NCBI RefSeq assembly: GCF_000014745.1
Contig: NC_008347.1
Coordinates: 2,806,001-2,870,000 of the forward strand
DNA length: 64,000 nt
Direction: 5' to 3'
Source: Maricaulis maris MCS10
GTDB lineage: Bacteria; Pseudomonadota; Alphaproteobacteria; Caulobacterales; Maricaulaceae
Numbering within the stretch: the stretch's first letter is position 1; each line of letters opens with the position of its first letter. A model generated the notes under the pieces. That model saw nothing but the letters and a program-made list of their open reading frames with translations, did not search any database and had not been told where the DNA came from. The translations under genes and the position numbers were made by a program. This document shows, piece after piece, positions 47,156-63,823 of this stretch.

Positions 47156-50100
47156 CTATTCGATCGTGACCGGCATCAGATTGTCATCCGAATTGCGGTC
47201 GATCAGCTTGTTGTACGGGTCGATGCCGGCATAGAGCGGCTGCTCGTCGACGATCAACTCGATCCGCATCGTGGTCTCGTTGATGCGGTGCTTGTCCATG
47301 TAGAGCACATGGCCCGAGCCTTCATAGGCATCGTCGAGATCTTCCGTGAAGACACCGATATCGATCATGTAGTCGATGTCTTCCTCGGTCTGCTCGCCAT
47401 CGCCGCCGGCTTCGTACTTGTGAGCCTCGACTTCCAGCACCAGATCCCAGCGACCATCATCGCGTTCGCTCGCCGTGGCCGAGGTCACATTGAGATCGAA
47501 CAGGACGATACGCTCGAAGAAGTCATGGATCATCGCCTCATGCTCGGGCCCGGCCTCCTCGCGCAGCAAGCGCAGGAAATCGAGCGTGATCGCGTAGGGG
47601 TCGGACGAATAGGCCCGCTCGGCGATCAGGCGTTGCATGGTGCGGTTGACCACGTCCTCACCGACATAGTCCTGCAGCGCATACATGATCACCGCACCCT
47701 TGCGGTAATGGACATACGCCTGGTTCTCGACCCGATAGAGCGGGAGCTCCTCGATCGCCTCCGAGCCACGCGCCGACAGATAACTGTCGAGCTCGTATTT
47801 CAGAAAGCGGCGCATATGGTCCTCGCCATATTCCTGGCGCATCACCATCAGGGCCGAATACTGGGCGAAGGTCTCGACCAGCATCGTACCGCCCTGAACA
47901 TTCGCCGACATGACCTGGTGCGCCCACCACTGGTGCGCCGCTTCGTGAGCGGTGACGTAGTAGACATAGTCGATGTCCTGCGGATCCGAGAGGTCGGCGA
48001 TGAAGCCGATGCTTTCCGAATAGGCAATCGTGTTCGGGAAGGACTGCGCGAAGCTCGCATAGGCCGGGAACTCCATCATGCGGTATTGCCGGTATTGATA
48101 CGGGCTGAAATGCTCCGAGAAATAGGCGATGGAATCCTCACCGGCCTCGAGCATGCGCTCGACATTCCAGTGATGGTCGGGATGGTAGAAGACCTGGAAA
48201 TCGACGCCGTCCTGCTGCCGTTCCGCAACCGCGTAATCGGCAGACATCCAGTTGAAGAAATTCAGGATCGGACGATCCATCACATACTCGAAATAACGAC
48301 GCCCTCCGTCTTCCCATTCACGCTGGAGATAGCCCGGCGCGATGGCGATCTGGTCCGGAGACGTTGAGACGATCGTCCGGAAGCCGGTATAGCCGCCACC
48401 GATGTAATTCTCGTCCCAATGGCTTTCATCCTCGAGGGCATAAGCCCGCTCAACCGGCTCCAATCCTTCCCGCCGGCGATCCTGCCGGTCGGTCAGGCGG
48501 CGACCTTCATTGAAACCGATGATCGGCATCGACTCGCCATTGTTGAAGAAGGCACCATTGTAGACGACCGAGGAAACATTGCCCGAATTGCGGAAGCCCG
48601 GATTATTGCGTTCGACGGAAAAGTCGAAACGCCGGGTATCGCCAGGCTCCAGCGGCGTGCCGAGGTCGAAGGAATAGAGGTAGAAGCGCTCATCCGATGA
48701 GGCCAGCTCACCGCCTTCAACCGCGTGCTCGACGATCGTCGTGCCCGGACCATAGGAAATCCACAGCGTGTCGATCGCCTCATCGGTCTGGTTTTCGAGG
48801 ACATAATGCCCTGTCGCGGCATAGCGCCGCTGCGCCGGGAAGATGTCGACATTGATGTTCGTGTCGACAACAAGCGGCTGCGGCAAGTCCTGCAGGTGAA
48901 TGTATTGACGCTCATATTCCGCCGCCATGGCCCGCTGGTCAGGACCGGAGATATAGGTGTTGCGGATATTGGTGTTGTAGAAAATCCAGCCACCCGTCGC
49001 ACCGCCGCCGACGACGGCGACAAGAGCGACCAGCGCTGTTGCCGGCGAATAGCCGGTAAAGAGGCGGCCGATACGCTGGCTGATCGGGGTCAGCGCTCCG
49101 CGGCTCCACAGCTGATAGGCGAAGACCATCAGCAGCAGGGCCCAGAAACCCCAATACGCCATGAACCACAGGGAAATGCCGAGGAAGTGGCCATAGCCAT
49201 TCATGTCCGAATACGGCGCCCCGGGCGAAAAGCCATACTGGTAGAGGCTGTGATCAAACCCGACCTGGCTCATCACCAGGGACATCACGAAATAGACCAG
49301 CATGGCGGCCATGCCGAGCCAGCGATTGTTGAAGACAACCTGCAGGAAAATCGCCAGGGCCGACAACAGGGCCGACGGCAGGACGAGTTCCATCACGCCG
49401 CGGATCGCATACTGGCTGATTTCCAGAACCGTATAGCCCATCGCCAATTGCGACAGCATGCCGGCGATGATCGCCACCAGGGCCAGCGAGATGATGACCA
49501 CGGTCATCGCCACGAATTTCGCGGTGATGAAGACCCAGCTTTCCGTCGGTGTGGATTCGGTGATCTCGTTGAACGCATAGCGCCGCTCACGCCACATCAA
49601 CTCGGCAGCGTAATAGATCACCACCACGATCGGAATGATGCCGAAAGCGCCATTGATCGTGTCCATAATGATCCGGGTGGTCGGAAAATTGTCCGTTCCG
49701 TAAAGCCCGTTGGCGAGGAAGAATCCCGGCACCGTATTGAACAGTCCCAGGGCCAGGATGATCCAGAAGGCGATGTTGAACACAACGCCTTTGACCTCGA
49801 AATCGACACGGGCAAAGAATTGTTGCCGCGCGGACTTTGCACCAAGCGTCGGAGTGACGCGCGGCAACTCAATGTCGGCAATGGCATGCCGGGAACCGGC
49901 TGTCGCGACAGCAGATTTCCGCTTGGCCGCGCCACCGGCATTGCCGCTCCGGAAACGGAAGGTGACCAGGTTCAGCACCAGCAGGGCCGCGCCGATCCCG
50001 ATCCACAGAAACCGGTTGGCCAAGGTCGTACCTTCGAACGGGATGACCTGGGAATTCTGCTCGAACGCGGTCCAGTAACGGGTCGCCTCATTGAACGTAT

Positions 50101-50740
50101 TCAGGCCGAACGGATCGATCAGGGCCAGCGTTTCGCGCAAGGCCGGTTCTTGGCGGGCGATGATCGACCCGACGAGATACAGGACAAGCAGGGCAACAAA
50201 TCCGACCCAGACCATCATGGTCGAGCGGGTGAAATTGGCGACGGTGAACAGGATGGTTCCAACCACCCACATATTCACCAGGCCAATCACGGCGTAGACA
50301 TAGACATACCAGTCCAGGCGCGTCGGACCGATCAATTCCTGGTCCAGCCAGGGCATGACCGAGCCGATCAGGAAGGCGATCGGCACGACGGCAAAGCACA
50401 GCGCGGTGGCCACGAAGCCACCAATGAAACGCCCGAGCACAAAATCGAACTCCCTGATCGGGCGTGAGAAGAACAATTCTTCCATCTTGAAGCTCTTGTC
50501 CCGGATGACACCGGACGACAGGAAGGCGACCGGTATCAGCCCGCCAAAGAGCGAGAAGATCAGCACATTGACGGTCAACGCGTTCGGCGAATTGATATTG
50601 GTCGCACCGCCGCCGCCGACCTGGATCTGGTCAATGGTGACTCCGCCGAAGACGAGGAGGAAGAAAATCGCGAAAACCGCGATGAAGACGGGTGAGAAAA
50701 GCTGATAGCGGATCTCGAACCCTGCGATCTTGGAGAGCAT
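47156..50740 (-). CDS. ABC-2 type permease fused to M1 family aminopeptidase
   Basis: A 1194-residue fusion. The N-terminal half (about 1-620) has roughly twelve hydrophobic segments in two ABC-2-like sets, starting IRYQLFSPVFIAVFAIFFLL and again FNIAFWIILALGLFNTV. The C-terminal half (about 650-1194) is a gluzincin M1 domain with zinc motif HEAAHQWW near residue 930 and the distal Glu in LVETFAQY. The preceding ESIGFIADL region occupies the place of the GAMEN exopeptidase loop and does not match it. The catalytic domain should face the periplasm. AAGGAG lies 6 nt before ATG 50740. Its ATPase is encoded just upstream. Substrate and direction of transport are unknown. Confidence 0.9.
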   Translation of the reverse strand: MLSKIAGFEIRYQLFSPVFIAVFAIFFLLVFGGVTIDQIQVGGGGATNINSPNALTVNVLIFSLFGGLIPVAFLSSGVIRDKSFKMEELFFSRPIREFDFVLGRFIGGFVATALCFAVVPIAFLIGSVMPWLDQELIGPTRLDWYVYVYAVIGLVNMWVVGTILFTVANFTRSTMMVWVGFVALLVLYLVGSIIARQEPALRETLALIDPFGLNTFNEATRYWTAFEQNSQVIPFEGTTLANRFLWIGIGAALLVLNLVTFRFRSGNAGGAAKRKSAVATAGSRHAIADIELPRVTPTLGAKSARQQFFARVDFEVKGVVFNIAFWIILALGLFNTVPGFFLANGLYGTDNFPTTRIIMDTINGAFGIIPIVVVIYYAAELMWRERRYAFNEITESTPTESWVFITAKFVAMTVVIISLALVAIIAGMLSQLAMGYTVLEISQYAIRGVMELVLPSALLSALAIFLQVVFNNRWLGMAAMLVYFVMSLVMSQVGFDHSLYQYGFSPGAPYSDMNGYGHFLGISLWFMAYWGFWALLLMVFAYQLWSRGALTPISQRIGRLFTGYSPATALVALVAVVGGGATGGWIFYNTNIRNTYISGPDQRAMAAEYERQYIHLQDLPQPLVVDTNINVDIFPAQRRYAATGHYVLENQTDEAIDTLWISYGPGTTIVEHAVEGGELASSDERFYLYSFDLGTPLEPGDTRRFDFSVERNNPGFRNSGNVSSVVYNGAFFNNGESMPIIGFNEGRRLTDRQDRRREGLEPVERAYALEDESHWDENYIGGGYTGFRTIVSTSPDQIAIAPGYLQREWEDGGRRYFEYVMDRPILNFFNWMSADYAVAERQQDGVDFQVFYHPDHHWNVERMLEAGEDSIAYFSEHFSPYQYRQYRMMEFPAYASFAQSFPNTIAYSESIGFIADLSDPQDIDYVYYVTAHEAAHQWWAHQVMSANVQGGTMLVETFAQYSALMVMRQEYGEDHMRRFLKYELDSYLSARGSEAIEELPLYRVENQAYVHYRKGAVIMYALQDYVGEDVVNRTMQRLIAERAYSSDPYAITLDFLRLLREEAGPEHEAMIHDFFERIVLFDLNVTSATASERDDGRWDLVLEVEAHKYEAGGDGEQTEEDIDYMIDIGVFTEDLDDAYEGSGHVLYMDKHRINETTMRIELIVDEQPLYAGIDPYNKLIDRNSDDNLMPVTIE

Positions 50741-50768
50741 GATGTGCTCCTTTCTGCTGGGTTGAGAC

Positions 50769-51656
50769 TTAAGCCGCTGCCGCAGCGGACTGGCCGCCAC
50801 GGATGGTCGAGAAATAGACATCTTCCAGGTCGGCAGCCGCCGACACGAAATCATCGCCCGGCTGGCTGTCGGCCAGGACACGGATCATCACCTGGCCCAT
50901 GGTCAGGCGTTCCGAGATGACATTGTGGCGGGTGCGCAGCTCGGCGAGGTCGGACTTGGCGGCCGTCTTCGACCAGACCTTGCCCTCAATTGCCTCGACC
51001 AGGTCGGCCGGCACGCCCTGGGCGACGATCTTGCCCTGGTTCATGATTGCCATTTTCGGGCACAGGTCGGACACGTCCTCGACGATATGGGTCGACAGGA
51101 TGACCACGACGTTTTCGCCGATCTCGGACAGGAGATTGTGGAAACGGTTGCGCTCTTCCGGGTCGAGGCCGGCGGTCGGCTCGTCGACGATGATCAGCTG
51201 CGGATCACCCAGCAGGGCCTGGGCAATACCGAAACGCTGGCGCATGCCGCCGGAATAGGAGGCGACCGACTTCTTGGCGTGCTGGGTCAGATTGGTCTGT
51301 TCCAGCAGGGATTCGACAACCTGTTTGCGTTCCTTGGTATTGGTCAGTCCCTTGAGGACGGCGAGATGGTCCAGCATGGCCCGCGCCGACATGCGCGGAT
51401 AGACGCCGAAATCCTGCGGCAGATAGCCCAGCGTGGCGCGCAGCGCCTTGGGATTTTTGACGATATCGATCTCACCGAAGGTCGCCTCGCCTGTGTCGGG
51501 GGCCTGCAGGGTGGCCAGGGTGCGCATCAGCGTCGACTTGCCGGCGCCATTGGGGCCGAGCAGGCCGAACATGCCCTTGGGGATGTCCAGCGTGACCCCG
51601 TCCATGGCACGCACGCCATTGCCATAGGTTTTCGTGAGATTCTTGATCGTCAGCAT
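50769..51656 (-). CDS. ABC transporter ATPase partner of the permease/M1 fusion
   Basis: A 295-residue ATPase of the DrrA/NatA-like ABC-2 class: Walker A GPNGAGKST, Q-loop LGYLPQDFGVYPRMSARAML, signature YSGGMRQRFGIAQAL, Walker B LIIVDEPTAGLDPEER, and the switch His in LSTHIVEDV. A C-terminal extension (about 220-295) ends in an Ala run. It lies 28 bp upstream of the permease/peptidase fusion on the same strand and is surely its motor. The ATG at 51656 has no strong ribosome site. Confidence 0.94.
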   Translation of the reverse strand: MLTIKNLTKTYGNGVRAMDGVTLDIPKGMFGLLGPNGAGKSTLMRTLATLQAPDTGEATFGEIDIVKNPKALRATLGYLPQDFGVYPRMSARAMLDHLAVLKGLTNTKERKQVVESLLEQTNLTQHAKKSVASYSGGMRQRFGIAQALLGDPQLIIVDEPTAGLDPEERNRFHNLLSEIGENVVVILSTHIVEDVSDLCPKMAIMNQGKIVAQGVPADLVEAIEGKVWSKTAAKSDLAELRTRHNVISERLTMGQVMIRVLADSQPGDDFVSAAADLEDVYFSTIRGGQSAAAAA

Positions 51657-51862
51657 GATGTTATTGCGCCGGCTTTGCCCGCGTCCCTCTCCTGTCCCTG
51701 GGCGCCAACCTAGGCCGCGCCCCATTATGGCGCAAATGAGGCTTTGTTCAGGATCGGCGCCAGAGGGACGCGTGACCCTGATTGTCCCCCCCAAGCGCTT
51801 TTGGGCGTGTTTCCTGCCGGAACAACGTGACCGCAAGCCTTCGCGATTGTATGCGGAGACAC

Positions 51863-53671
51863 ATGGCCCCACCTCTCCTCACCCTCCAGAACATCCATCT
51901 CACCTTCGGCGTGACGCCGCTGCTCGCGGGTGCCGACCTGCAGGTTGATGAAGGCGAACGCCTGTGCCTGGTCGGGCGCAATGGTTCGGGAAAGTCGACC
52001 CTGCTCAAGGTCGCGGCCGGTCTGGTCGAGTGCGATGAGGGTGACCGTTTTGTCCACCCCTCGGCCACGGTACGTTACCTGGAGCAGGACCCGGACCTGT
52101 CGGCCCACGCCACGATCCGCGACTATGTGATGTCCGGCCTGGCACCCGGCGATGCCGACTACCGGGCCGACTATCTGCTCGAAAAACTCGGCCTGACCGG
52201 CGAGGAAACACCCGGGCAGGTCTCCGGCGGCGAAGCCCGCCGCGCGGCCCTGGTCCGGGCGCTGGCGCCGGATCCCGACATCCTCCTGCTGGACGAGCCG
52301 ACCAACCATCTCGACTTGCCGGCCATTGAATGGCTGGAAGAGGAGCTGCGCCATTGCCGCTCGGCCCTCGTCCTGATCAGCCATGACCGCCGCTTCCTGG
52401 AAAACCTGACCCGCAAGACCGTCTGGCTCGACCGCGGCCAGACCCGCCAGCTCGACCAGGGCTTTGGCGGTTTCGAGGCCTGGCGCGACACGGTGCTGGA
52501 ACAGGAACAGGACGAGTTGCACAAGCTCGACCGCAAGATCGTGCGCGAGGAAGACTGGCTGCGCTATGGCGTCACCGCCCGGCGCAAGCGCAATGTGCGC
52601 CGCCTGGGTGATCTGCACGCCCTCAAGCAACAGCGCCGCGACCATCGCGGACCGCAAGGCCAGGTCAAGCTGGAAGTCTCCGACGCCAATGAAAGCGGCA
52701 AGCTGGTCGCCGAGGCCAAGAACGTCTCGCTGAGCTATTGCGAGCGCGCCATTGTCAGCGACTTCTCGACCAAGATCGCCCGCAATGCCCGTATCGGGCT
52801 GGTCGGCCCGAATGGTGCCGGCAAGACCACCTTGCTCAACATCCTGACCGGCCAGCTGGCGCCGGACAGCGGCTCGGTCCGCCTCGGTACCAAGCTGGAA
52901 ATCGCCTCGCTCGACCAGAAGCGCGTCGCCCTGAAGGATGACTGGACCCTGTCGGAAGCCCTCACCCAGGGCAGCGGCAACCAGGTCGAAGTCGGTGGCA
53001 AGACCAAGCATGTGGTCGCCTATATGAAGGATTTCCTCTTCCCGCCGGAGCAGGCCAATACGCCGGTCCATGTATTGTCGGGCGGCGAGCGGGCGCGGAT
53101 CATGCTGGCGCGGGCGCTGGCCCTGCCGTCCAACCTGCTGGTCCTCGACGAACCGACCAATGATCTCGACCTGGAGACGCTCGACCTGTTGCAAGGCCTG
53201 ATCGCGGACTATGCCGGCACGGTCTTCCTGGTCTCGCACGACCGCGACTTCCTCGACCGCTGCTGCACCTCGGTGATCATCGCCGAGGGTGATGGCATCT
53301 GGCAGGAATATGCCGGCGGCTATGCTGACATGGTCGCCCAGCGCGGCGCCGGCGTCAGCGCACTCGACAAGTCTGGCGGCAAATCCGGCAAGTCAGCCGA
53401 CAAGCCGACCGCCAGCGCCGAGGCCAAGCCGGAACGCCGCCGCATGGCCAACAAGGATCGCTACGCCCTCAAACTCCTGCCCGACGAGATCGAGAAACTC
53501 AGCCAGGAAATCGCGCGCCTGGAAGCCGACATGGCCGACCCCAAACTCTTCGCCGACAGCGCCCGCTTCACCGCCGTCTCCAAACGCCTCGGCGAAGCCA
53601 TGCAGGACCGCGCCGACAAGGAAGACCGCTGGCTCGAACTGGAAGCCCTGCGCGAGGAGATCGAGGGCTGA
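51863..53671 (+). CDS. uup: ABC-F ATPase Uup
   Basis: A 602-residue soluble ABC-F protein. The two ATPase domains have Walker A motifs GRNGSGKST and GPNGAGKTT, signatures VSGGEARRAALVRAL and LSGGERARIMLARAL, and Walker B LLLDEPTNHLD and LVLDEPTNDLD. A linker (about 245-310, Arg/Lys-rich, RRKRNVRRLGDLHALKQQRR) joins them. The C-terminal coiled coil (about 530-602, ALKLLPDEIEKLSQEIARLE) is the Uup-specific DNA/ribosome-interacting tail. ABC-F proteins act on ribosomes; Uup loss raises transposon excision in E. coli. GGAG lies 4 nt before the ATG. Confidence 0.94.
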   Translation: MAPPLLTLQNIHLTFGVTPLLAGADLQVDEGERLCLVGRNGSGKSTLLKVAAGLVECDEGDRFVHPSATVRYLEQDPDLSAHATIRDYVMSGLAPGDADYRADYLLEKLGLTGEETPGQVSGGEARRAALVRALAPDPDILLLDEPTNHLDLPAIEWLEEELRHCRSALVLISHDRRFLENLTRKTVWLDRGQTRQLDQGFGGFEAWRDTVLEQEQDELHKLDRKIVREEDWLRYGVTARRKRNVRRLGDLHALKQQRRDHRGPQGQVKLEVSDANESGKLVAEAKNVSLSYCERAIVSDFSTKIARNARIGLVGPNGAGKTTLLNILTGQLAPDSGSVRLGTKLEIASLDQKRVALKDDWTLSEALTQGSGNQVEVGGKTKHVVAYMKDFLFPPEQANTPVHVLSGGERARIMLARALALPSNLLVLDEPTNDLDLETLDLLQGLIADYAGTVFLVSHDRDFLDRCCTSVIIAEGDGIWQEYAGGYADMVAQRGAGVSALDKSGGKSGKSADKPTASAEAKPERRRMANKDRYALKLLPDEIEKLSQEIARLEADMADPKLFADSARFTAVSKRLGEAMQDRADKEDRWLELEALREEIEG

Positions 53672-58572: not shown

Positions 58573-59259
58573 ATGACGCTCGACACGATCTGGAATGCCG
58601 CCCTCGCCAGTCTCGAGATCCTCGATGACTCGACTCGTCTCGACATGGTGGGACAGGCAGAGCGTGCGCAGGTCCCGCCCGGAACTGTCATCATAGCGCA
58701 AGACGAAGCTGATGACCGGGTCTTCCTGCTTTTGCAGGGCCGCGCCCGTGTGGTTCTGCTATCCGAGAACGGTCAGGAAATCTGGCTGGACGCCTTCGAG
58801 TCAGGCGCCGTTTTCGGTGAGTTGGCAGCCCTTACCGGTTCGCCCAGAATTTCCGGCATTGTCGCTGAAACCGATTGCGATCTCGCGGTATTCGAAGGAT
58901 CGGCTTTCTTTGGCTTGGTCCGGCGACATGGAGAGATCGGGCTGGCTTTGTCACGCCTGCTCGCCCGCCGTGTCCAGCACACGACACAACGCATGTTCGA
59001 GCTGTCGGCTCTGTCAGCACCCGGCCGAATCTATGCCGAGCTGTTGCGAATGTCCCGGCCGGTCGGCACGGACGGAACCGCCCGCGTGATCGAACCGGCG
59101 CCCTCGATGAAGGAGCTGGCCCTGCGGGTCAATTCAACGCGTGAAACCGCGTCGCGCACGATCAACGACCTGCAGCGCAAGGGTTTGCTGAAAAAGCTGA
59201 CGAGCCGGATCGAACTGGTCGACCCGGACCAGCTAGATCGCCTGCGCGGATCGAGCTGA
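58573..59259 (+). CDS. Crp/Fnr family transcriptional regulator
   Basis: A 228-residue regulator with an N-terminal cyclic-nucleotide-type beta-roll (about 25-130) and a C-terminal winged helix with MKELALRVNSTRETASRTI near residues 175-200. The phosphate-binding cassette FGELAALTGSPRI keeps Glu83 and Arg92, consistent with cNMP binding, though the residue after Arg is Ile rather than Ser/Thr. There are no N-terminal cysteines, so it is not an FNR-type iron-sulfur sensor. GGAG lies 6 nt before the ATG. It overlaps tail to tail by 27 bp with the cyclase-like gene, which suggests a functional link but does not prove one. Confidence 0.92.
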   Translation: MTLDTIWNAALASLEILDDSTRLDMVGQAERAQVPPGTVIIAQDEADDRVFLLLQGRARVVLLSENGQEIWLDAFESGAVFGELAALTGSPRISGIVAETDCDLAVFEGSAFFGLVRRHGEIGLALSRLLARRVQHTTQRMFELSALSAPGRIYAELLRMSRPVGTDGTARVIEPAPSMKELALRVNSTRETASRTINDLQRKGLLKKLTSRIELVDPDQLDRLRGSS

Positions 59260-61068
59260 CGCCCGGACCTGCAAACCTACGACAGCGTCCCGGGCCATCG
59301 CCCGGAGCGAATACAACCGCTGCTCCGGCATCAACGCATCGATGCGGATATGGCCAACATACTCACTGCGAAAGCCGGTCGATGACATGGCCAGGGCCGC
59401 CGCGAAGGCCTCGCTGACGAACACCGAACCCGGCACGGTCACCGCCTCGATCCGGGCTGCAACCGCGACCTGACCGCCAAAAAGGGATGGACGTTTCTGG
59501 AGCGGATCCTCGCCCACATGAACAGGCCCGAAATGACCGGCGATCCGCAAGCCGACCGACGGTGGCAAATCATGTGCCCGCAGATCGATGGCCGCGAAAA
59601 CCTGACGCAGCGCGTCTGCGGCGATGGCCGCCTGCTCAACCGTTTCGAACGCCAGGAACATGCCATCGCCCCAACTGTCCGCATGGACTGCCGGCGCCGC
59701 GAGCCTGTCGCAGCACTCGGCAAGCGGCTTGAGCACGCTCTGGACGAAGTGTGGCACCCTGTCATCGGGAACGGACGATGAGCCGGCAATGTCGAGAAAA
59801 AGCATCGCCCGCATCACCGCGCGGAACCCCGGTTCCAGGACACGCCCCGCCTTCGCTTGGCTAGTCCCGGCACACCGCGTGCCAGGGTAGCGAACGCGGA
59901 CCTGGTCAAGCCCGCAGGCGGTCCACACATGGCTGTCATGATGGGTGCCAAAGGCTGGCGCCACCTCGGCCTGATCGTCATCAGCGACCAGGAGTTGAAG
60001 CGGCGTCGTGGCCAGGACATTGGCGCGCATTCGGGCCATCCCCATCGCGACAAGGCTTGAGAAATTGAGCGCCTCCGGTGAGGCAATACGCCGATCTGTC
60101 GTCAGCTCGACCACCTTCTCTGCCTGCCGGAGGCAGGTCTCGAACCGGCTGACCCATGCCTCGCCGAAAGGCCGCACTGATGCGTCGAGAAAAACCGGAA
60201 CCGGCACGGGAAGGATCAGGTTCAGCTCGCACCCACGTGCCAGCGCGGCTTCGGCGACGACAATGTCCGACCCGGCTGCCAAGGCGCCATAGACGGGACC
60301 GACATGGTGCCGCGCAAGCAGAAGGTCGACCGTTTCCCGCAAGCGGTCTTCCTGCCGGGGCTCCACCAAGCCCGCTGCCTCACCCACTCCGAAAATATGA
60401 CCCGCAAAATGCGCCGGGCGCGGTGGTTCAAGAGGTGCCAACCATTCAGAATCGAGACCCAGGACGGACACCAGCAATCTTAGTTGGCGGAGCGTGGTCG
60501 CATGGGCGAGATAGTTCGCCGGATCCTGTCGGAAGGCTTCGCGCAATGTCGATCGCGCGGAATGCAGGTCGCCAATCAGAAGATAGGCCTCTGCCTGTGA
60601 CGCGTAGCGATAATAGCCCTGTTCCGGCGTATCGGAGACAGTATCGAAGTCACCATAGAGAACCCGTCTCGCATAGGTCTCCGCATCGCTCGACCGCCCT
60701 GCCAGCATGTACATGCTGGCGGCGTTGACGGCTGGATAATGGCCCCCGGTCCGGGCGTGGACATCGGCATATTTTTCGGCGCTTTCAAGCGCGAGGCGGG
60801 CGAAAGCGCGGCCTGAGGATTCAAGCGCCAGGGCCTTGAGAAGACGGGCTCCCACGGCCAGGCAGTCCTCGTCATGACGGATGGTCTCGAGTTGATAGTC
60901 CTGATAGGCCTTCGCCGCCCGTTCAAGCGCGCCCGACCGTATCAAACAGAGCACCGCACGGTGTTTGAGCCAATAATCATCCGGTTGACCGAGCAGGCCT
61001 TCCTGGCAAAGGTCATAGGCCCGCGCGAGATCGCCTTGGTTGAAACGGTCAATGATCCGATCACGCAT
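59233..61068 (-). CDS. TPR/TRAFs-like, SLOG-like and class III nucleotide cyclase fusion
   Basis: A 611-residue soluble signalling protein. Residues 1-215 are TPR-like helical repeats. Residues ~218-395 look like a Rossmann SLOG-type nucleotide-sensing domain, with HIFGVGEAAG, then GPVYGALAAGSDIVVAEAAL and a basic/acidic ILPVPVPVFLDASV stretch. Residues 420-605 are a class III adenylate/guanylate cyclase homology domain with metal aspartates Asp426 (MLFLDIAGSS) and Asp468 (SWGDGMFLAFE). In the transition-state motif the usual V-N-x-A-A-R reads VAVAAR, so Asn is Ala at ~535 while Arg539 is kept; activity may be altered. ATG at 61068 has GGGGA 8 nt upstream. Last gene of the TIR operon. Confidence 0.82.
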   Translation of the reverse strand: MRDRIIDRFNQGDLARAYDLCQEGLLGQPDDYWLKHRAVLCLIRSGALERAAKAYQDYQLETIRHDEDCLAVGARLLKALALESSGRAFARLALESAEKYADVHARTGGHYPAVNAASMYMLAGRSSDAETYARRVLYGDFDTVSDTPEQGYYRYASQAEAYLLIGDLHSARSTLREAFRQDPANYLAHATTLRQLRLLVSVLGLDSEWLAPLEPPRPAHFAGHIFGVGEAAGLVEPRQEDRLRETVDLLLARHHVGPVYGALAAGSDIVVAEAALARGCELNLILPVPVPVFLDASVRPFGEAWVSRFETCLRQAEKVVELTTDRRIASPEALNFSSLVAMGMARMRANVLATTPLQLLVADDDQAEVAPAFGTHHDSHVWTACGLDQVRVRYPGTRCAGTSQAKAGRVLEPGFRAVMRAMLFLDIAGSSSVPDDRVPHFVQSVLKPLAECCDRLAAPAVHADSWGDGMFLAFETVEQAAIAADALRQVFAAIDLRAHDLPPSVGLRIAGHFGPVHVGEDPLQKRPSLFGGQVAVAARIEAVTVPGSVFVSEAFAAALAMSSTGFRSEYVGHIRIDALMPEQRLYSLRAMARDAVVGLQVRASARSAQAI

Positions 61069-61115
61069 GCCGGGCGTCCCCGGCAATGGCAGCGCAACGC
61101 CCACTGGCTGATTGA

Positions 61116-61724
61116 TCAGGGCGGTGTGAGACGGGCAATTGGGTCGATAATGACCCGCGTCGCCTGGTTTCCGGCATCCTGGGACGCGTTGATGAAGAGC
61201 GCGAATTCATAGTCGGCAGGCGCCTCGACCGGTTGGGTCTGGATCTGGAAACTGTACGGTTTGCAGTTTTCACCATTCAGGGTCAGCCAGTCCAGTCCGC
61301 AGAACTGACCGGTCGGATCGACGCCCTTGAACTTGATACGCGCATCTTCGAACCCCCAGCCGGGCACATGGATATTGAAAATCATCCGGGTAAGCCCGTG
61401 CACATGCTGATCGAAGGGACAAGGCAGCACGGCGCTGCAGGGCGTCCACATGCCCGCCAGCGCTGCTGCGACGGCCGTCCTCAGGGTCGAGGCGTCGGCA
61501 TCACTGAACGCCTTCACTGTCTCGGCGAAGACAACGAAAATCTGGGCGATCTCCGTATCGTCAAAGCTTTCGCGACCGGCATCGCTGCCATTCATGACCG
61601 TGAAACCGTCGCTGGCCCGAGCGATCAGGCTGATCTGCGTGTGCGTCGGCGCCTGACCACAATCGGCCAATAGTTCTTTCTGAATGATAGACCCGTCAAA
61701 TGCGTCCTTGTCGATCACAGCCAT
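61116..61724 (-). CDS. Unknown protein in the TIR/cyclase module
   Basis: A 202-residue protein I do not recognise. There is no signal peptide or membrane segment. The N-terminal half is mixed helical; the C-terminal half (about 110-202) looks beta-rich, with FNIHVPGWGFEDARIKFKGV, CGLDWLTLNGENCKPYSFQI and the ending FALFINASQDAGNQATRVII. This resembles a small sandwich domain of the kind carried by operon-embedded effector or nucleotide-system partner proteins, but that is a guess. ATG at 61724 has AGGGA 7 nt upstream; ATG at 61739 is an alternative. It is separated by 53 and 47 bp from the flanking genes on the same strand. Confidence 0.75.
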   Translation of the reverse strand: MAVIDKDAFDGSIIQKELLADCGQAPTHTQISLIARASDGFTVMNGSDAGRESFDDTEIAQIFVVFAETVKAFSDADASTLRTAVAAALAGMWTPCSAVLPCPFDQHVHGLTRMIFNIHVPGWGFEDARIKFKGVDPTGQFCGLDWLTLNGENCKPYSFQIQTQPVEAPADYEFALFINASQDAGNQATRVIIDPIARLTPP

Positions 61725-61777
61725 TTGGTTGTCCCTCATGACAGTCTCGGGCCCGTCCCGTGACTGAGTCGAAAACC

Positions 61778-63823
61778 CTACTCCGCACTCGACAAGGCCG
61801 CCTCGAGTGTCATCCGGGCGTATTGAAGCTCGGCCGCGGAATCACTGCGAATGCGATCCTGGACAGGTTCGAGTCGGCGCACGATTTCCGCGCGAATCTG
61901 GTTGGCTTCGGCGTGATTGCCCTGCGCTTCGAGGACATCCGCAAGCGTGTTTGCGCCGGCCGCATAATAATAGGGTGCATGGTCTACCGCGCCCGACCAG
62001 TCGTCGACCTGACCCAATGTGGCCAACATGTGCTCGATCGAGGTCTGCGCCGCAGCCAAGTCACCGCGGGCGGCAAAGATCCGCCCTTCGATCAGGCTGG
62101 CATGCAGGCGACTGACGGCAAAGCGCGCCCCTTCGGCCGCCCCCCAGGCCTCATGGGCCATGAAGCCGGTCGCGGCGACATAGGCATTTCGGGCAGCTTC
62201 AATGCGCCCGGCCAGTAATTCAGCCTGTGCCTGCCACAGGCGTTGGCGCACACCGATCAGACGCCATTCCAGGTTTTCCGGTTCGTGAGCAATCAGGGCG
62301 GACGCTTCGAGTGAAGCCGGCTCGAGAATTTCCAGAGCGAGCTGGAGGTCTTCAGCCGATGTCTGGCGACCGGGCGCAATCAGCAATCGAGCCAGGGCGT
62401 ACTCTGCGGCAATGACAGACCGGCGAACACGCCAGTCATCTGTCGCATCGACACGGCCGCTTTCATACAGCGCCAATTGCTCACCCAGGGTGGCAATCGC
62501 TGCATCGCGCCCATCGGTGATTTCCGAAATCGAGGCCACCCAGGCCAGCGTTTCCGATACTTCCACCCAGATGGGATCATTATCCGGGCGATCCGCAGCC
62601 ATGGTACGCAATTGCTCGAGCGCCGAGGTCGCTGCCGTCCGGGCATCCAGCCAACGCCGCTGGGCCACGAACAAGGCTCCCATGTTGGAATGGGCATACG
62701 CCACTTCGGCTTGCCATTCGAGATTGTCGGGATTGATCTCGATCAGCCTGTAAGCGAGATCACGATACTCGCCGAAGCGCAGCTCGGCCGTGTCCAGATC
62801 GCCCCGCCGCCATGCGAAATACCCGACATAATAGGCACTTTGCGCATGTTCATAGACCCGCTCGCCCATCGTCGGTTCAACGGCGAGGATGCGGCTGGTT
62901 GACTGGTAGGCAATTCGGAAATGCTCGTAAGCGTTCTCCAGATCACCCTGGGCACTGTCGATGACACCCAGCAGATGGAAGGCCCGCGCACGTCGACCGA
63001 GCTCGTCAGTCGTCATCGCCACTGCGCCCTGGCCATCATAATACTCGATCACTTTGGCTCCGACGGCGTCCAGCACGTCCAGACGTCCGACCGGCTCAAG
63101 ATTGTCTCGCAAATCATTCAACATGAATTCTATGAGGTCCTCGGCCTCGGCCTTGCGCCGCTCAGCTTCGGACCTTGCCGAGATAGCGAGCAGCGTCAGT
63201 GTGGCCATGATTACAGAAAGCAGTACAGAGGCGCCTGTGATGACCGTCACGCGGCGTTGTCGGCGCTGGTGGTCACGCTGGATGAGCTGATCGAGACTGA
63301 CGCCGACCAGCCCGGCCACCAGTTTCAGCAATGCCATCCGTCGCCCGTCAGCCTGTCGGCGCATGTCTGCGGCTACCGGCTCCGAGATGGCTCCATCCGC
63401 GCCCGGCTCAAGAAGCGCGGGTGGGAAGCAGGTCTCGCCAGGCTCGGTTTCGGGGTCTGCATCGGGGTTGCCGGACACGATCGCAGCCAGGACGATTCCG
63501 TCCGGGTTGAGGTTTCGATAAGTCCGGATCTCTTCATTCACCCAGCGCGACGCCGCCGCTTGCGGCGAACAAACGACAATCAACGCATCGGACTTCGCCA
63601 GCGCTTCGCGCACGGATGCCGTCAGATCACGGGTCGCGGCCAGGTCCTCGCGATCGCGGAAAATCGGGGTAAGTCGCCGCGGCACTGGACCATGCCCGGT
63701 ATCCTGCCCGACCAGTCGCGGGGGAATGGCATAGGTCTCGAGCTGGCGATGCAGCCAGCGCGCAAAATCCTGATCCCGATGACTGTAACTGATGAACGCC
63801 TTGTAGCGCTTGCCCACACTCAT
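61778..63823 (-). CDS. TIR domain, transmembrane, TPR protein
   Basis: A 681-residue protein. The N-terminal TIR domain (1 to about 155) has the first strand KAFISYSHRDQDFARWLHRQ, FRDREDLAATRDL, and SPQAAASRWVNEEIR, where Glu98 lines up with the catalytic glutamate of NAD-cleaving TIRs. A conserved basic helix (ADGRRMALLKLVAGLVGVSL, then RDHQRRQRR) precedes one transmembrane helix (about 194-216). The remaining 450 residues are TPR-like repeats on the far side of the membrane. GGGGA lies 6 nt before ATG 63823; GTG at 63826 is possible. First gene of a three-gene operon. TIR-TM-TPR proteins are known in bacteria but their roles are largely unknown. Confidence 0.88.
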   Translation of the reverse strand: MSVGKRYKAFISYSHRDQDFARWLHRQLETYAIPPRLVGQDTGHGPVPRRLTPIFRDREDLAATRDLTASVREALAKSDALIVVCSPQAAASRWVNEEIRTYRNLNPDGIVLAAIVSGNPDADPETEPGETCFPPALLEPGADGAISEPVAADMRRQADGRRMALLKLVAGLVGVSLDQLIQRDHQRRQRRVTVITGASVLLSVIMATLTLLAISARSEAERRKAEAEDLIEFMLNDLRDNLEPVGRLDVLDAVGAKVIEYYDGQGAVAMTTDELGRRARAFHLLGVIDSAQGDLENAYEHFRIAYQSTSRILAVEPTMGERVYEHAQSAYYVGYFAWRRGDLDTAELRFGEYRDLAYRLIEINPDNLEWQAEVAYAHSNMGALFVAQRRWLDARTAATSALEQLRTMAADRPDNDPIWVEVSETLAWVASISEITDGRDAAIATLGEQLALYESGRVDATDDWRVRRSVIAAEYALARLLIAPGRQTSAEDLQLALEILEPASLEASALIAHEPENLEWRLIGVRQRLWQAQAELLAGRIEAARNAYVAATGFMAHEAWGAAEGARFAVSRLHASLIEGRIFAARGDLAAAQTSIEHMLATLGQVDDWSGAVDHAPYYYAAGANTLADVLEAQGNHAEANQIRAEIVRRLEPVQDRIRSDSAAELQYARMTLEAALSSAE

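Follow-up and report, generated by a model that had tools for sequence, protein, structure and literature searches.

Burroughs and Aravind (2020) reportedly predicted immune systems using cyclic mononucleotides, NAD-derived signals, proteolysis and a tetratricopeptide repeat (TPR) scaffold, and the Pfam families TPR-S (PF20308) and pNTSase1 (PF20301) presumably originate from that work. Two further systems are close in composition: Thoeris, with the TIR protein ThsB and the SIR2-SLOG protein ThsA, where the SLOG domain of ThsA receives the TIR products (PMC10022894, PMC7272460), and Pycsar, with PycC and PycTIR (PMC11224242). Here, we describe a gene module at positions 58573-63823 of the window, i.e., the whole 64,000-nt stretch analysed (G000:C1:2806001-2870000), in the single-contig 3.37-Mb genome (G000) of Maricaulis maris MCS10. 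Three minus-strand genes specify a predicted membrane TIR-TPR protein, a small middle protein and a fusion of TPR-S, a SLOG-like domain and a class III nucleotide cyclase; a gene for a CRP/FNR-family regulator is convergent with them. A sequence-only reading of this DNA had called the module possibly undescribed. We found no paper describing this module in the portion of the open-licence literature covered, but PF20308 and PF20301 already are Pfam families for such components.

On balance, the evidence tips somewhat towards a four-gene, chromosomally inherited signalling circuit that feeds a cyclic nucleotide to the CRP-family protein and ends in transcription, with the TIR protein probably upstream. 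The TPR region of the membrane protein would sense an envelope or periplasmic cue on the outside, with the TIR domain in the cytoplasm. The TIR protein, probably together with the pNTSase1-like middle protein, would make or license a nucleotide signal, likely NAD-derived, which the SLOG-like/TPR-S part of the cyclase protein may receive. The cyclase would then make a 3′,5′-cyclic mononucleotide, to be bound by the convergently encoded CRP-family protein, and the latter may activate the TIR operon from a box present some 40 bp before its start, thus providing positive feedback. In lineages where the cyclase is decayed or missing, TPR-S may drive the CRP-family protein directly, either through contact or within a single polypeptide.

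The TIR-TPR gene (61778-63823, minus strand; ATG at 63823; 681 aa, with one predicted transmembrane segment between TIR and TPR) is followed by the middle gene, U207 (61116-61724, minus strand; 202 aa), and by the TPR-S/SLOG-like/cyclase gene (59233-61068, minus strand; 611 aa; identified with Pfam and models). With the likely starts, the gaps between them measure 53 and 47 bp. The middle gene probably begins at ATG 61724, its Met being invariant across eight sequences, and the cyclase protein at about 61068, albeit several homologues start at residue 13. The CRP/FNR-family gene (58573-59259, plus strand; 228 aa) shares 27 bp with the 3′ end of the cyclase gene. An ORF check recovered the three minus-strand genes in the order and with the short gaps that the sequence-only reading had given, and the proposed length of 202 residues for the middle protein held as well; what that reading missed were the convergent CRP gene and the promoter lying past the end of the window, so that its three-gene module was incomplete. 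The TIR gene, the middle gene and the cyclase gene each occur in 18 of the 19 Maricaulis genomes, in the same order, which argues against a chance assembly. The complete order with the convergent CRP gene is kept in 17 Maricaulis loci, while the 18th contig (L036) ends inside the cyclase. None of the four genes was found in the remaining genome (G073; 94% complete, 230 contigs). The seven named relatives of the middle gene are all from Maricaulis. Outside the genus, a member of genus g19 of the same family (G136) has the same four-gene order at 37, 27, 39 and 44% identity. The CRP gene belongs to the module, which thus consists of four genes rather than three.

The module is flanked by sulfatase and peptidase genes on one side and by DUF3108 and dehydratase (ILVD_EDD) genes on the other; those flanking genes that have a match are metabolic genes. 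Across 16 loci, the divergence of each module gene tracks that of the neighbouring M14 peptidase gene (Mantel r of 0.89 for TIR, 0.66 for the middle gene, 0.91 for the cyclase and 0.90 for CRP), with the module changing 1.5-1.65 times faster than this neighbour. Among 50,697 phage records, none matches the cyclase protein; of 72,556 plasmid records, six do, two of them near full length at 27% identity. The module looks like a core, vertically inherited circuit. The sequence-only reading had offered a nucleotide-signalling or defence system. Nucleotide signalling is well supported, but the defence part is not supported: PADLOC returned single-domain matches only (TIR to SAVED_TIR, 1.2e-6; CRP to PycTIR, 1.1e-9), and NCBIfam gave none above cut-off for the three genes. 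An antiphage role, with the TIR protein or the cyclase triggered by infection and the phage stopped through loss of NAD or a transcriptional response, therefore appears unlikely, given also the presence of the module in 18 of 19 Maricaulis genomes, its concordance with a neighbouring gene, its metabolic flanks and its near absence from phage and plasmid records. What speaks for it is the likeness of the CRP binding domain to that of PycTIR, along with the company of TIR, SLOG-like, cyclase and, in relatives, trypsin-like proteins (the latter by Pfam), all of which are parts of conflict systems; PF20308 and PF20301 were presumably named for predicted immune components, too.

The regulator matches cNMP_binding (2.9e-19) and HTH_Crp_2 (8.1e-13), and its best solved matches are CRP/FNR regulators (3h3u, 2.2e-18; E. 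coli CRP, near 3e-13). It is one of three proteins with cNMP_binding in G000. In its cNMP-binding domain (58669-58929, plus strand), a Glu and an Arg align, via 3h3u, with the phosphate-contacting pair of CRP, and the recognition helix keeps an RE..SR pattern, which we take to be that of E. coli CRP. We have compared this pocket with the state of the cyclase among 99 regional loci, a non-random sample gathered from the family, order and class with the cyclase or the middle protein as the query. A cyclase was taken as intact when it scored >100 bits to a profile built from intact ones, and the two metal-binding Asp and the Arg were then checked. Pocket and cyclase agree in all 73 loci scored. 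Where the cyclase is intact and CRP is present (40 loci), the Glu and Arg of the pocket are kept without exception, as are the Asp pair and the Arg of the cyclase; in the 33 loci without an intact cyclase, the pocket pair is always gone (both residues are missing in 32; in L171, an Arg occupies the aligned position), the pocket alignment being less certain for five fused proteins (37-49 bits). Not counted were L036, L143 and L170 (truncated or short TPR-S) and L149, whose CRP match is the binding domain in an unrelated 779-aa protein and would have agreed, nor 22 other loci in the tree with no CRP in the fetched stretch, some of these stretches ending at contig ends.

In the decayed cyclases, the last strands are often recognisable, and the metal Asp pair is complete in none of the 21 aligned (the truncated L036 aside). 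At the lost Glu position of the regulator, His (11), Cys (6), Ala (4), Leu (4) and others are found, a mixture that looks like relaxed constraint. The five fused proteins (L131, L159, L162, L163 and L171), from one family, carry a CRP-type domain before TPR-S, and Pfam confirmed HTH_Crp_2 together with TPR-S in L159, L162 and L171. Both the joint loss of pocket and cyclase and the CRP-TPR-S fusions support the view that the CRP-family protein would bind the product of the cyclase.

The cyclase protein itself matches TPR-S (PF20308) at 5.7e-6 and 27.3 bits, which is 0.3 below the cut-off of 27.6; relatives aligned over this region score 30-53 bits, above the cut-off. By profile, the relatives of this scaffold also match the TRAF-binding region of animal MAP3K. 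The cyclase domain (residues 433-590; 59335-59808, minus strand) matches Guanylate_cyc (4.2e-8) and has the class III metal-binding Asp438 and Asp480 as well as the transition-state Arg551, from which we infer that it makes a 3′,5′-cyclic mononucleotide; the base of the product is not readable from its residues. A search with PF00211 gave a single protein in G000, and a single one in each of 18 of the 19 Maricaulis genomes. This protein is the module cyclase in 17 of these 18 and another protein in G073, while the 19th genome (G067) has a truncated cyclase copy and no PF00211 match. By this search, the module cyclase is the sole class III cyclase found in 17 of the 19 genomes. Across 40 loci, the purine-selecting residue of the cyclase and the C-helix residues of CRP change in concert from lineage to lineage: D goes with TT, E with LT or LS, K with TS, and N with TS or, in L044, with TT. 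This pattern is fully confounded with phylogeny.

Between the TPR-S and cyclase parts lies the SLOG-like domain (residues 225-412; 59869-60432, minus strand), whose fold is predicted and which has 12 invariant columns in 37 sequences. These come from loci with as well as without an intact cyclase, so the role of the domain is likely common to both; its conservation fits a place upstream of the cyclase. The domain gave no useful Pfam match, the Pfam scan returned no SLOG family, and there was no match to a PDB sequence. For the protein as a whole, cyclases, TPR proteins and TPR-bearing transferases were among the Foldseek matches listed.

Approximately 400 bp separate the TIR gene from the next ORF, beyond the window end. 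They contain a CRP box, CGTGACGGCCATCACA, at G000:C1:2870207-2870222 (64207-64222 if the window numbering is continued). TATAAT follows 27 bp downstream of the box centre, a spacing near that of class II CRP promoters. All 19 Maricaulis and g19 loci have GTGA-N6-TCAC within the 700 bp preceding the TIR gene (mean 0.11 and maximum 1 in shuffles); tiled 700-bp stretches over the same loci contain it in 43 of 477 cases, the TIR-upstream sites and a coding match within the TIR gene included. Genome-wide, G000 has 17 places with the strict form, YGTGA-N6-TCACR, compared to three for a reversed control, and 11 of the 15 examined are inside an ORF of at least 80 aa. A second box-like match in the TIR gene (63236-63251) was dismissed as a coding coincidence, as it covers the conserved RRVTVITG codons. 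Elsewhere, loci of genus g7 have perfect candidate boxes a short distance ahead of the CRP gene and close to the cyclase/protease promoters. Candidate boxes also occur before the fusion gene in L162, L163 and L171, and in L159 one is found inside the long called ORF of this gene, ahead of the CRP domain. Loci of genus g28, which are Caulobacteraceae-like (L113, L115, L117-L120, L152, L155-L157), show a palindrome resembling the box (9 of 10 letters) immediately behind the cyclase gene, at a nearly constant 4236-4259 bp from the start of TIR.

The leader of the TIR operon includes, also beyond the window end, a structured RNA element (G000:C1:2870066-2870122, minus strand; L045:10067-10123) with an 11-bp stem, a bulge with CTTGCCCA and a 6-bp hairpin. 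A model built from 17 of the 18 Maricaulis loci finds it in all 18 and nowhere else in the 96 sources searched (the rest of the genome was not searched), and there is no Rfam match up to E 1. Ten of its 17 pairs change on both sides (30 cells versus 8.9 in shuffles), counted on the same alignment from which the RNAalifold structure was derived.

The TIR protein matches TIR_2 (5.5e-14) and ThsB_TIR (2.5e-9). Its TIR domain (residues 11-118; 63473-63796, minus strand; Pfam) includes a W-V-x-x-E motif with a putative catalytic Glu, which is present in 51 of the 51 aligned TIR proteins having the region (the region is absent from one of 52). ThsB and other TIRs use the equivalent Glu for catalysis (PMC10022894 and PMC7272460). 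For the membrane TIR protein with extracytoplasmic TPRs that had been put forward, the TIR domain and one hydrophobic segment (approximately residues 196-217, read by eye) stand, but the Pfam matches to TPR after the TIR domain are sub-threshold only. With this segment, the TPR region would lie outside and the TIR domain in the cytoplasm, where it may make the signal read by the SLOG-like domain.

The middle proteins are very divergent, with W-x-F, Y-x-L and C-terminal IDP motifs mostly in common. Most TIR-bearing loci have one small gene between TIR and TPR-S, and protease-type loci have two; in L122, L124, L126, L127 and L128, no gene of at least 100 aa lies wholly in that gap (L122 with an overlapping frame). 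In L076-L078, L085, L087-L091, L094 and L168, from related genera, a larger protein and the middle gene are encoded between TIR and TPR-S on the opposite strand. The larger protein is trypsin-like by Pfam in L076 and L085, the latter also with an Ig-like domain, and by position or BLAST in the other loci. Profile comparison links the window family with the G136 protein (98.6%), a Caulobacter-type set (90%) and a protease-type set (73%). PF20301, described in Pfam as a “predicted novel nucleotide synthetase”, matches positional equivalents above cut-off in L129 (5e-7), L130 (4.5e-12) and L146 (5.2e-43; a full match), and at E up to 1 it is detected in 10 of 32 middle proteins. Over the 136 genomes of the window’s family, it gave a single match, below cut-off, and none in Maricaulis. 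As the window protein itself has no match, its assignment as a distant pNTSase1-like protein is by bridge, via position and profiles. PDB and Pfam searches with the Maricaulis middle family yielded nothing useful. In L082 and L164-L167, the middle-gene equivalents have, as read by eye, a lipoprotein-like signal at the start, unlike the Maricaulis form; such starts are unexplained by a cytoplasmic role.

At E up to 1e-5, the cyclase protein was detected in 48 of the family’s 136 genomes; at E up to 1e-20, 66 of 398 genomes from the order and 26 of 387 from the class had it. Among the 99 regional loci, 63 have the TIR gene and 74 a CRP match (L149 included), and in 58 both stand beside TPR-S. 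At the class level, one locus (L146) has the whole module, with a cyclase that is not intact, and four of 20 loci (L139-L141 and L144, from another family) have the TPR-S-cyclase gene directly beside a different CRP-type gene, with no TIR; L149, with its unrelated binding domain, is another of these 20.

Several observations weigh against the circuit as we propose it. The strongest argument that the sequence offers against an efficient cyclase is the missing transition-state Asn: it is replaced by Ala547 in the window protein, and 55 of 60 aligned cyclases of this kind, the window one among them, have Ala, Val, Ser or Thr in its place (Asn in five). The purine-selecting residues are also non-canonical, and cyclase activity could thus be low or absent. 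Moreover, the agreement in 73 of 73 loci is perfect but phylogenetically shallow, amounting to only one to three evolutionary events. In a 95-row TPR-S tree, both traits need three changes, with one independent pair on well-supported branches; a careful 63-row tree also gives three changes and does not reject a single clade of all 32 losers (p-AU 0.362), and significance is unreachable in an independence test for the co-loss. In a rival reading, the cyclase would be an inactive scaffold in Maricaulis too, TPR-S controlling CRP by direct contact in all lineages and the pocket Glu and Arg being kept for some other ligand. The survival of the TPR-S/CRP pair in lineages without an intact cyclase, the existence of CRP-TPR-S fusions and the lost Asn would suit such a scaffold, but not the retention of both metal Asp and the Arg in every intact locus with CRP, nor the disappearance of the CRP pair from every locus without an intact cyclase; we consider it distinctly improbable.

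Further points on the same side concern the promoter and the inputs. In the other TIR loci, GTGA-N6-TCAC precedes TIR in two of 44 only (0.23 in shuffles); the -10-like hexamers of the relatives match TATAAT at three or four of six positions, picked as the best in the stretch considered, and across the 19 loci they lie 29 bp from the box centre in nine, 27 bp in two and 20-37 bp in the rest. The CRP-family protein could also serve the sulfatase gene from which its own gene diverges. That the CRP gene is an incidental neighbour, regulating the alkyl-sulfatase or peptidase gene while a three-gene TIR operon acts alone, is nevertheless very improbable despite this divergent arrangement in the window, considering that the 19-kb locus of G136 keeps the four genes together with the alkyl-sulfatase and M14-peptidase genes absent, that L035, L037 and L043 in Maricaulis keep CRP with no sulfatase gene seen, and that a CRP box stands upstream of TIR. 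As to the signal from TIR to the SLOG-like domain, its basis is the kept TIR Glu motif and the SLOG-like invariant columns, nothing more. Of the TPR-SLOG-cyclase fusion initially proposed, the cyclase domain was matched and TPR-S nearly so, but the basis for the SLOG-like part is a motif, together with an alternation of strands and helices predicted in a stretch of low confidence; structure prediction, suggested as a check, gave usable TPR and cyclase parts of this protein but not a usable SLOG-like part. The window middle protein has no direct Pfam match, PF20301 included, and an AlphaFold model of it from eight sequences was useless (mean pLDDT 37). Homologues that fail to co-localise had been named beforehand as a refutation; co-localisation is seen in Maricaulis and in most of the TIR-bearing relatives fetched, but class-wide, both TIR and CRP are absent from the stretch fetched for 14 of 20 loci with the cyclase; in addition, L122, L124, L126 and L127 have TIR and the cyclase but no CRP.

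A more specific form of the proposed four-gene circuit we advance only tentatively, and with real doubt: a two-messenger relay, in which a TIR-derived, NAD-based signal and its SLOG-like sensor would gate the only class III cyclase, whose product would drive the CRP-family protein and its own operon. Sister lineages would have discarded the second messenger (decayed cyclase, blind CRP, CRP fused to the scaffold), forming a natural series from a diffusible messenger to direct protein control. If the circuit is real, a signalling logic of the TIR/SLOG-like kind, familiar from immunity, governs a core transcriptional circuit of alphaproteobacteria, the source organisms being marine bacteria not known to be pathogens, and a possible source of input into the alphaproteobacterial class III cyclase/CRP pathway is revealed. 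Those lineages whose cyclase has decayed and whose CRP is blind or fused would then offer a rare view of the loss of a second messenger while its pathway survives. Apart from the module, the window encodes, at 47156-51872, an ABC transporter ATPase beside a 1241-aa protein with ABC2-membrane and M1-peptidase matches.

Compared with the systems mentioned at the outset, the module shares with Thoeris the logic of a TIR protein and a SLOG-like receptor, including the match to ThsB_TIR at 2.5e-9, but its SLOG-like domain is linked to a cyclase; no SIR2 match was found in the proteins scanned, nor PF18185 (STALD) in G000. With Pycsar, it has in common a class III-type cyclase next to a cyclic-nucleotide-binding domain and TIR, and the binding domain of its CRP resembles that of PycTIR. 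It differs in that its TIR is not fused to the binding domain but is part of a membrane TPR protein, and in that the receptor is a DNA-binding regulator of the CRP-HTH type; the cyclase protein had no PADLOC match up to E 10 (whether that library has a PycC model was not checked). As in cAMP-CRP regulation, there are a class III cyclase, a CRP-family factor and a TGTGA-N6-TCACA-type box; in contrast, the cyclase is joined to TPR-S and SLOG-like parts, its gene lies with those for TIR and CRP, and the genome has only 17 strict boxes. The predicted TPR-S/pNTSase1 immune components come closest in kind, with a TPR-S scaffold beside TIR, a cyclase and, in relatives, a trypsin-like protein, and with a middle protein in L146 that belongs to PF20301. 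Unlike these, the module is core-inherited in one genus, and the co-loss of pocket and cyclase, the CRP-TPR-S fusion, the promoter box and the leader RNA are described here. Domains of these kinds have reportedly figured in earlier predictions of immune systems; what is added here is their wiring.

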